IMG/VR virus record: IMGVR_UViG_3300024513_000043
Coordinates: 1 to 36,304 of that record
Direction: 5' to 3' (one strand)
Length of the DNA: 36,304 bases
From: a virus
Part shown: positions 31,867-36,304 of the stretch, piece after piece
Position numbering within the stretch: the first letter of the stretch is position 1
Layout of the letters: each line of letters begins with the position of its first letter
Position numbers and translations under genes: made by a program
The notes under the pieces: model-generated
What the model was told of the DNA's origin: nothing
Seen by the model: the letters and a program-made list of their open reading frames with translations, nothing else
Database searches by the model: none

Positions 31867-32808
31867 CTATACTTTCTCTCCCCGAAAGTAAGCCGCCCCG
31901 TTGATGACTTCGCATAGTTCAGGAGGCAGTAACATACCATCCTTAAATGTCAGGACAGCGAATCCCGAACACCAGTTCACAGGATTGCCCTCACAGTATG
32001 TAAATTGCTCGCCATAGGGCTCCGCTAACGTCCCGGTGTCCACCCCATAACGACGCCCATTGTAATCAGAATACGGAGTGACTTGGAGTTTGTGCAGGTG
32101 GCCGGTCACAATCGTCTTTCCGGCCTTCAAGGTGTTGTTGTAGGGTGCGTGAACCCCGTTGTGCCAGCGATGCTTCACAATCACTTGCTCGTTGATGTCC
32201 ACCCTCCAGCCGGTATGCCAGCCAGGGAAGTAATCAAACAAATCCATGGCGTCCGAAAGTTCAGGTGCGTTGACCGCAATATAGCGATGCAGTCGAACGT
32301 CATGGTTTCCAAATGTCCACAAGCAACGTGCGTTCTTGGAGGCGTTGCGAATCTCGTCTAAGCGGTCTTGACAGGCTTCTATCTCTTGCTTGGGGGTAGG
32401 AGGGGTTGTGCCCATCAGCGGCTCGTGGCGGCTGATTCTGGCCCCGTCAAAGACGTCCCCGTTGAGGATGATGGTCTTGGGCTTAAATTCTTTCAGGAGG
32501 TCTACAAACGCCCGATGCGCGGTGGTGACTTCCCCTGGCCAGTAGTGGCAGTCGGAAGCGATAAAAACGTGCCCGTTCTCAACGGTGTGCTCTAGGATGC
32601 GGCGGTTATCAGGAATGATGGTCTTTAGGACAGATTCCTGCTTGGCATTGAATGACGGAAGGACAATCCCGTACTTTTCTTGGATTTTACTTCTGCGCCG
32701 GTAAATGTTGACTTGGTCAACTTGGAATTCTTCTGCAACGGCTTTAGGACTTCCCAGGCGCTTGAACGCCTCGATGATTTGCTCATCCGTCAGTTTTCGG
32801 CTTGCCAC
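31867..32808 (-). CDS. Metallophosphoesterase with N-terminal HTH, 313 aa
   Basis: Calcineurin-like fold with D86 and H88 (ASDCHYW), NGDVFDG at 116-122, TFGNHD at 165-170, H213 (KHRWH) and GHLH at 236-239: the full metal-binding set. The first ~45 residues, RKLTDEQIIEAFKRLGSPKA then EEFQVDQVNIYRRRS, form a helix-turn-helix, an unusual DNA-binding addition. Substrates could be nucleotides, nucleic acid or phosphoprotein. GTG start; overlaps the HslV-like gene by 26 bases. Confidence 0.85.
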   Translation of the reverse strand: MASRKLTDEQIIEAFKRLGSPKAVAEEFQVDQVNIYRRRSKIQEKYGIVLPSFNAKQESVLKTIIPDNRRILEHTVENGHVFIASDCHYWPGEVTTAHRAFVDLLKEFKPKTIILNGDVFDGARISRHEPLMGTTPPTPKQEIEACQDRLDEIRNASKNARCLWTFGNHDVRLHRYIAVNAPELSDAMDLFDYFPGWHTGWRVDINEQVIVKHRWHNGVHAPYNNTLKAGKTIVTGHLHKLQVTPYSDYNGRRYGVDTGTLAEPYGEQFTYCEGNPVNWCSGFAVLTFKDGMLLPPELCEVINGAAYFRGEKV

Positions 32809-33229
32809 GACTTCTCCTCGGTAATCTCAGAACATCTATTGGCTCATGGGAGCTGGTGTCATACATACAGGCAATTTTTACCGCTTCCACCGGAGATAAT
32901 CCCAAGTGCATGGCGGCGATTGCGTAGTTTGCTCCTGTTCCAATAGCCCAAAAGTCGTTCTTGATACGCGCAGGGATGATGGTACTTTCGTAAATCCAAA
33001 TGCCATCACTTCTGAGTTCAAGAACCGTCACATCGGTGTCAGAGTCCAGGTCACCACCCTTCTCCAACGCCTGATAGAACTTTAATATCTTATCCCAATC
33101 TCCGCAAGCCCCATAAACAGAGGCTTTTCCTTGACGAAGTTTCTCTACGAGGTAGAAGGAATCGTCGCCGCTCACCATACTATCTGCGGCGATTTCTCCC
33201 GTAGATACTTTGGCGGCCACCGTGGTCAT
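32783..33229 (-). CDS. HslV/proteasome-beta-like Ntn-hydrolase, 148 aa
   Basis: Starts MTTVAAKVSTGEIAADSMVS. The first Thr (T2) is exposed after Met removal, as in HslV and proteasome beta; D16 and K30 are at the right spacing for the other two active-site residues. AIGTGANYAIAAMHLGLSPV, EAVKIACMYD and then SSHEPIDVL match the typical HslV C-terminal part. No HslU-like ATPase gene lies in this window, so it may use the host unfoldase or act alone. ATGA overlap with the next gene. Confidence 0.82.
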   Translation of the reverse strand: MTTVAAKVSTGEIAADSMVSGDDSFYLVEKLRQGKASVYGACGDWDKILKFYQALEKGGDLDSDTDVTVLELRSDGIWIYESTIIPARIKNDFWAIGTGANYAIAAMHLGLSPVEAVKIACMYDTSSHEPIDVLRLPRRSRGKPKTDG

Positions 33230-33459
33230 TTGTCGGCTTTAGTCTCTAGTCGGTCAAAGATGCGCTCAAGGATGTTCTCTAGCCGGTCAAAGCGAACTTC
33301 GATGTCCACTTTCTTGACGTAGTTGGAAGGCAGGTCAACTTCAATTTGATGGACGTCCCGGCGCAACTCTGCTACGGAGTCCCAAATCTGGCGGGCAAAC
33401 CATCCAATCCCTGCCAACGCTGAACCGCCGATAAGGTTAATGATGGTCTGCCATTCCAT
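33226..33459 (-). CDS. Small single-pass membrane protein, holin candidate, 77 aa
   Basis: Starts MEWQTIINLIGGSALAGIGW followed by FARQIWDSVAELRRDVHQIE and a charged helix ending ILERIFDRLETKADK. One N-terminal membrane segment and a long charged C-terminus is common for small phage membrane proteins annotated as holin-like or holin-accessory. It overlaps its neighbours by 1-4 bases. Function inferred from topology and place. Confidence 0.6.
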   Translation of the reverse strand: MEWQTIINLIGGSALAGIGWFARQIWDSVAELRRDVHQIEVDLPSNYVKKVDIEVRFDRLENILERIFDRLETKADK

Positions 33460-34699: not shown

Positions 34700-36304
34700 T
34701 TATTGATTGGTCTTGATGATGACGATACCTGAACCACCGGCAAATGACTGATTTGCGCTTCCAGCTATACCACCACCACCCCCACCAGTATTTGAGCCAC
34801 CAGCGGTTCCTGTTCCAGTAGCACCACCGCTGCCATTTCCGTTACCGCCACCGCCAGTTCCTCCGGTTCCTGCCGCACCAGAAAAGAAAGCACCGCCACC
34901 GCCGCCGCCAGCATAGGTTACAGAAGTTCCTGTAATTGAAGATGCGGTTCCGTTACCACCATTTCCAGACGCTGTTCCAGTAGCACCAGCCGCAGACGCA
35001 CCACCGCCTCCACCGCCTCTAATTTGTGATGGAGAATTTGCTAGTGACGCACCGCCGTTGTTGCCTTGAGATGGCGAAGTAGATGGAGTGTTTCCAGTCC
35101 CACCACCGTATGAAGCGTTTCCAACTTCACCACCACCACCACCAGAACCTCCATTTGCCCCAGTAGCAGGGGCAGAACCGCCACCCCCACCGCCACCGCC
35201 ATTAGAAGTGATGGTAGAGAAAACAGAGTTTCCTCCGGTTCCACCAACAGCGTTTGTTGAAGCGGAACCACCAGCTCCAACTGTAACCGTGTATTCCGTA
35301 TTAGCAGTAACACTAAAACTTGTGCCAGTTCTAAAACCACCAGCACCACCTCCACCGCCAGTACCTTGCCCGCCACCACCGCCACCGCCACCCGCAACCA
35401 CAAGGTAGTCCACAGAAGATACGCCAGTAGGTGCTACCCACTTGCCAGAGCCTTTGAATGTGAAGACGGATTGTGTGGGTGCTTGGTATTTAAGGATGAC
35501 AATACCGGAGCCGCCTGCTTTGCCTCTTGTATTGTTATATGAAGCACCGCCACCACCGCCAGTATTTGTACCTCCAGCAATGCCATCAACGGCGGCAGTT
35601 GCTCCTGTGCCACCACCACCTGTTCCACCTGTTCCGCCTGTTCCCGTATTAGTGCTACCACCGCCACCACCAGCGTAAGTTACAGACGAGCCACTAATTG
35701 TAGACGCAGTTCCTGCGCCACCAGCACCCCCAACATCTAAAGCACCAGACGCTCCAATTGTTCCATTTCCACCAACTGCGTTAGCTCCGCCACCACCTCC
35801 AGATGCCAAATCAGCACCTGACCTTAAAGCCCCAGTTCCAGCATTATTCCCTTGAGAAGGAGAGGTATTAGGTGTGTTGCCAGAACCTGCAGTGCCAAGT
35901 GTTGTTACTGCGGTATTACATCCACTACTTCCACCAGAGCCGCCGTTTCGCCCATTTTGTAATGAATCTGAATATGCCCCACCACCACCACCACCATTAG
36001 AAGTAATGGTAGAAAATACAGAATTACTTCCATCACTGCCCTGCGCTCCTCCACTTGTATTGGCGTTACCGCCAGCGCCAACTGTAATGGTGTAATCTGT
36101 TCCGGCAGTTACAGACGCACCTGTTCCTGTTCTAAAACCGCCTGCTCCACCAGCACCGAGACCACCACCACCACCGCCACCAGCAACAACCAAATACTCC
36201 ACCTCGGTCACACCTGTAGGACAAGTCCATGTGCTAGTGGCCGTGAAGGTTTGGACGACGGTGTATTGGGTCTGGGGCCAATTGCCGCCACGAACCGCTT
36301 TTTG
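34700..36304 (-). CDS. Glycine-rich tail adhesin, variant A (5' end beyond window)
   Basis: The frame is open from the window end (36304) to the stop at 34700; a GTG at 36211 is only an internal Val codon. Joined through the repeat to the ATG at 1003, the full protein is about 563 residues. Domain 1 (from ~residue 58) is variant A with loops such as YSDSLQNGRNGGSGG, SGCNTAVTTLGTAG and NTPNTSPSQGNNAG; domain 2 (from FTFKGSGKWVAPTGVSSVDY) is unique and has the same framework, ending SGIVIIKTNQ. This is a two-domain receptor-binding-type protein; the receptor is unknown. Confidence 0.85.
   Translation of the reverse strand, partial: QKAVRGGNWPQTQYTVVQTFTATSTWTCPTGVTEVEYLVVAGGGGGGGLGAGGAGGFRTGTGASVTAGTDYTITVGAGGNANTSGGAQGSDGSNSVFSTITSNGGGGGGAYSDSLQNGRNGGSGGSSGCNTAVTTLGTAGSGNTPNTSPSQGNNAGTGALRSGADLASGGGGGANAVGGNGTIGASGALDVGGAGGAGTASTISGSSVTYAGGGGGSTNTGTGGTGGTGGGGTGATAAVDGIAGGTNTGGGGGASYNNTRGKAGGSGIVILKYQAPTQSVFTFKGSGKWVAPTGVSSVDYLVVAGGGGGGGGQGTGGGGGAGGFRTGTSFSVTANTEYTVTVGAGGSASTNAVGGTGGNSVFSTITSNGGGGGGGGSAPATGANGGSGGGGGEVGNASYGGGTGNTPSTSPSQGNNGGASLANSPSQIRGGGGGGASAAGATGTASGNGGNGTASSITGTSVTYAGGGGGGAFFSGAAGTGGTGGGGNGNGSGGATGTGTAGGSNTGGGGGGIAGSANQSFAGGSGIVIIKTNQ
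35362..35482. repeat. 121-bp exact repeat, copy 2
   Basis: Identical to 1-121; encodes the inter-domain linker (QSVFTFKGSGKW then VAPTGV). The two copies diverge immediately after 35482. It defines the left border of the alternative segments on the plus strand. Confidence 0.9.
35483..36183 (-). other. Variable segment A of the adhesin (first Gly-rich domain)
   Basis: A 701-base stretch that is the alternative to 122-795. Shares framework blocks with it but differs in nearly all loop residues, and it has nine more codons. Confidence 0.85.
36184..36304. repeat. 121-bp exact repeat, copy 2 of the right-end overlap
   Basis: Identical to 796-916. It shows that the window end joins the conserved adhesin N-terminus, closing the genome. 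Confidence 0.9.

Follow-up and report, generated by a model that had tools for sequence, protein, structure and literature searches.

A PPH-type proteasome-like hydrolase gene in a freshwater-clade phage and its predicted unfoldase-independent role

A phage gene whose product resembles HslV and the proteasome, in a genome with no apparent unfoldase, raises the question of what such a peptidase is and how it might work. The gene lies in IMG/VR virus record IMGVR_UViG_3300024513_000043, positions 1 to 36304, and this whole stretch of 36304 nt is referred to here as the window. The original prediction had put an HslV/proteasome-like peptidase at positions 32783..33229, and these coordinates proved exact; the gene is on the minus strand, which had been left unstated, and a plus-strand gene at 32783-33229 was rejected because of stops in that reading. 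By ORF reading, homology and modelling, the locus encodes a PPH-type proteasome-like Ntn (N-terminal-nucleophile) hydrolase of 148 aa (PHROG 1040) with an ATG start. The ORF begins MTTVAAKVSTGEIAADSMVSGDDSFYLVEKLRQ, with Thr2 (mature Thr1), Asp16 and Lys30 as candidate catalytic residues, and contains an internal FWAIGTGANYAIAAMHLGLSP block. The Thr2-Thr3 codons occupy 33221..33226 (minus strand), and Thr2 is, from the sequence and alignment, the predicted nucleophile once the methionine is removed.

The minus-strand gene order is 2OG-Fe(II) oxygenase, phrog_7759, a 77-aa protein with an N-terminal hydrophobic segment (phrog_462; 33226..33459), PPH, a metallophosphoesterase (PF00149, phrog_221; 31867..32808), a 149-aa protein, a 167-aa protein and a phage lysozyme (PF00959; 30423..30911), a lysis gene approximately 2 kb downstream of PPH. 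As phrog_462 shares an ATGA overlap with the PPH start and the metallophosphoesterase overlaps the PPH end by 26 nt, these genes look like one translation unit. At 34700-36211, also on the minus strand and adjoining the oxygenase gene, we observed a 503-aa, very glycine-rich protein that contains an internal repeat, a GGTEYLVVAGGGGGG-like motif occurring twice, and is possibly a tail or adhesin-type protein.

The family to which this protein belongs was examined by profile and sequence searches. PHROG 1040 ('peptidase HslV family'), whose members include Phage DSL-LC04, Salmonella phage ZCSE9, phiM5 and CcrSC, was matched over the whole length of the protein with E=9.6e-27. The single sequence found no proteasome match in Pfam and a weak one in the PDB, where the top hit was the BPH structure 5ovu (E 0.025). 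PF00227 was matched by nine of 38 family members at E<=1 (best 9e-6), and the 38-sequence alignment, used as a profile against the PDB, retrieved BPH at 1.7e-11 as well as proteasome beta subunits and HslV. One scan of IMG/VR gave 147 relatives, the best 80 of which have 77-100% identity and all share the position of the MTT start, and the closest isolate is Phage DSL-LC04 (54%). For pairs with a computable dS, dN/dS values against the window gene were approximately 0.05-0.15; at the sequence level, the gene is shown to be under purifying selection, with its catalytic residues conserved. The PHROG match, the relatives and the dN/dS values put the reality of the ORF far beyond chance and, as judged by sequence, its product genuinely belongs to the proteasome-like superfamily. 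By published traits it belongs to the PPH family of phage-borne proteasome homologues, described in 2021 by Fuchs, Alva and Lupas (PMC8665760). A literature search for phage HslV function returned annotation remarks and this family description only, and the papers searched reported peptidase activity for no PPH. A scan of genome contigs for bacterial or prophage copies found none. Taken as a family, PPH resembles a mobile accessory gene that often lies within late regions.

Structure prediction against HslV, which had been proposed as a check, gave a match to the Ntn fold. The AlphaFold2 model (pLDDT 91, pTM 0.85) aligned from residue 2 onward with HslV from residue 1 onward (4g4e; Z 19.5, rmsd 2.4 over 138 residues), and with BPH 5ovt at Z 17.2 and rmsd 2.7. 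A single helix (45-57) is modelled between strands 37-43 and 67-73, where HslV and the proteasome have two; further helices follow at 100-108 and 113-123, and the final element is strand 131-135, succeeded by a low-confidence tail. The loop at 58-66 (GGDLDSDTD) is acidic but short. The MTT start and candidate Thr1, Asp and Lys of the original prediction were borne out by the alignment, in which the nucleophile is Thr in 34 of the 38 members and Ser in the other four, the catalytic Asp is present in 38/38 and the catalytic Lys was located at its usual spacing by scan in 37/38, the remaining member (L115) having it at a longer spacing, as assigned by eye. Residue conservation in this alignment places equivalents of Thr1/Ser1, Asp17 and Lys33, together with the oxyanion Gly, in the window protein. 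The relatives in which Ser replaces the Thr nucleophile are L130, L131, L132 and L142, and such Ser variants have also been reported for some BPH subfamilies.

We infer from these features a compact, propeptide-free proteasome-like N-terminal-nucleophile hydrolase with predicted hydrolase activity. The description of the gene as an HslV/proteasome-like peptidase was therefore right about the Ntn/proteasome-like fold, seen in both PHROG 1040 and the model, but not about HslV, as the protein is of the PPH type, approximately 140 aa long and missing helix H2; HslV proper was ruled out by the missing H2 and by the lack of HslU in the window record. Some phages carry more than one copy, Aeromonas phage 2L372D (L085) having three PHROG 1040 copies, two of them adjacent, and CcrSC (L084) having additional copies that lie outside the terminal repeats; in these two phages the products could form hetero-oligomers.

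The reported lack of an unfoldase in the window was also upheld, with no match to HslU (TIGR00390) or AAA (PF00004), and such an absence is normal for PPH. HslU was without a match in all 11 PPH phage records searched (the window and ten genomes), whereas control genomes did match; AAA_2 (PF07724) found no match in 16 PPH phage records, and PF00004 was matched in two other phages. Phage HslV genes without HslU alongside have also been noted in a Salmonella jumbo phage (PMC7823757). Going by the 11 records, PPH phages lack an unfoldase as a rule. PPH might nevertheless borrow a host ATPase, HslU or another, redirected to degrade host proteins, as the HslV fold match and the carriage of PPH by phages of HslUV-bearing hosts would allow. 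However, BPH, the closest group, has no known partner and has lost the HslU-interface residues (PMC5777263), and PPH itself is missing H2 and has no direct sign of an interface, and we find this reading very doubtful. Independence from an unfoldase is favoured over dependence on a host ATPase, although sequence cannot tell them apart. The shared fold, at approximately 20% identity, could also mean that PPH co-assembles with host HslV and poisons or alters it, but the catalytic residues of PPH are conserved under purifying selection, and mixed PPH/HslV rings are unlikely given the low identity and the missing H2; we regard this idea as scarcely credible.

Processing of virion proteins had been suggested as another role, the window having no separate prohead protease. 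The window encodes a terminase, a portal, a scaffolding protein (phrog_3927) and a major head protein of the LUZ24/phiM5 type. Among head proteins whose host is named, the closest are those of Methylophilales phage Venkman (53%) and phiM5 (49%). Peptidase_S78 (PF04586) indeed had no match in the window record, but this proved uninformative: among nine other complete phages checked with the same head module, Peptidase_S78 is found in none and PPH only in phiM5. As eight of these phages thus have neither, PPH is dispensable for head maturation of this type, and its distribution is accessory, not head-essential. The phiM5 gene does lie between terL and the portal, as might suit a head maturation protease in place of the prohead protease; yet it is not one of the phiM5 genes flagged as present in virions, and in the window the head is of the scaffold type and the PPH gene lies away from the head genes, all of which makes such a role highly improbable. 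The PPH-free phages sharing the head module remove the prohead protease guess and point the search for a substrate away from the virion.

Placement among lysis genes had been read as a sign of late action, and this placement is found in the window clade, in Guernseyvirinae (holin and endolysin directly after the PPH gene) and in some Klebsiella and Aeromonas phages (endolysin 1-4 kb upstream of PPH), but not family-wide. A lysozyme homologous to that of the window is present at 52 of the 61 freshwater-clade loci with room for it, and one locus without it (L062) has a holin downstream of PPH. PPH also lies immediately ahead of the holin in phages of the Escherichia phage SZH-1 type. In other phages PPH adjoins terL, terS, HNH or endonuclease VII genes, lying beside terL/portal in phiM5, beside the terminase in CcrSC and L124, and beside nuclease genes elsewhere. 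A general PPH-lysis association was ruled out by the other neighbours seen in DSL-LC04, phiM5, CcrSC and several distant IMG/VR loci and, since PPH sits by non-lysis genes in these phages, a lysis neighbourhood alone is no pointer to a lysis role. At the distant loci L001, L106, L111 and L112, PPH comes after an HNH or endonuclease VII-like gene, and in some of them the two genes overlap. The 149-aa gene of the window is downstream of PPH in 55 clade loci and upstream in 18.

At 78 of the 80 loci taken from the best 80 of the 147 relatives, the next gene after PPH is the metallophosphoesterase; in the other two the contig stops just beyond PPH. A search by tblastn found no phosphoesterase partner at 29 distant PPH loci. 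This partnership is clade-specific, and the freshwater clade offers small, single-copy, conserved versions of PPH with a fixed gene partner. PPH could be an Ntn enzyme with a role other than degradation, working on a single protein or a small molecule as a specific amidohydrolase or a connectase-like ligase, possibly with the phosphoesterase. Of the relatives that have been tested, BPH is the nearest, and it showed no activity on standard peptides or casein, though epoxomicin bound its Thr1 (PMC5777263); this inertness makes a dedicated amidohydrolase or ligase a serious rival; in addition, the ligase connectase belongs to the same family, H2 is missing in PPH and the phosphoesterase neighbour is fixed in the window clade. 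Against this, the distant loci are without that neighbour, and connectase, which is without H1-H2, carries an insertion not seen in the window protein, and overall we consider the non-degradative role unlikely. We also think it quite unlikely that the two overlapping genes, PPH and the metallophosphoesterase, make up a single functional module that acts late and needs no ATPase, such as an Ntn amidohydrolase or ligase that shares its target with the phosphoesterase; such a module would give the proteasome fold an activity other than protein degradation.

The best reading, to which we assign a probability of roughly 60%, is that PPH is an ATP-independent, Thr1-dependent accessory hydrolase of restricted substrate range that acts late, its activity being a prediction. 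Host methionine aminopeptidase would remove Met1 and expose Thr1, and the subunits might then come together, perhaps in a ring like that of BPH or in a looser one, with their active sites shielded. Flanking helices make inter-subunit contacts in PPH relatives and, with H2 missing, a closed ring may not form. The enzyme would need no ATP-driven unfolding to cleave its targets, which may be peptides, unstructured proteins or a single dedicated substrate. Going by gene position, it would be co-translated with the metallophosphoesterase beside the lysis genes and act late in infection, probably as the product of a fitness gene and not as a capsid protease or lysis enzyme.

Of the known proteasome-like systems, HslV (ClpQ) shares the fold (Z 19.5) and the catalytic residues with the window protein, which is, however, approximately 25-30 residues shorter, has no H2, is accompanied by no HslU gene and has approximately 20% identity. 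Anbu differs by a C-terminal helix H5 extension that is not present in the model. BPH (5ovu/5ovs, PMC5777263) is the best PDB profile match (1.7e-11) and is likewise without a propeptide or a known partner unfoldase and with a Thr or Ser nucleophile, but BPHs are longer, have H2 and a long acidic pore loop and form tetradecamers, whereas the window model has no H2 and a short loop. Other PHROG 1040 genes (DSL-LC04 at 54%, ZCSE9, phiM5 and CcrSC) are of the same family with different gene neighbours, and those of 2L372D and FBKp34 have C-terminal extensions or paralogues. The closest likeness is to the published PPHs (PMC8665760), which are phage-borne, approximately 140 aa long and without a propeptide, have conserved Thr1/Asp/Lys/Gly and are missing H2. 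The window protein has a compact subunit of this size without a propeptide (148 aa, MTT start), is missing H2 in the model and comes from a tailed phage, as seen from the terminase, portal, scaffold and head protein of the window and from its phage relatives. As it fits each PPH trait checked and the family had already been described, the finding is not a new phenomenon; no feature separates it from published PPHs by the described traits, and what the window clade adds is the fixed metallophosphoesterase neighbour.
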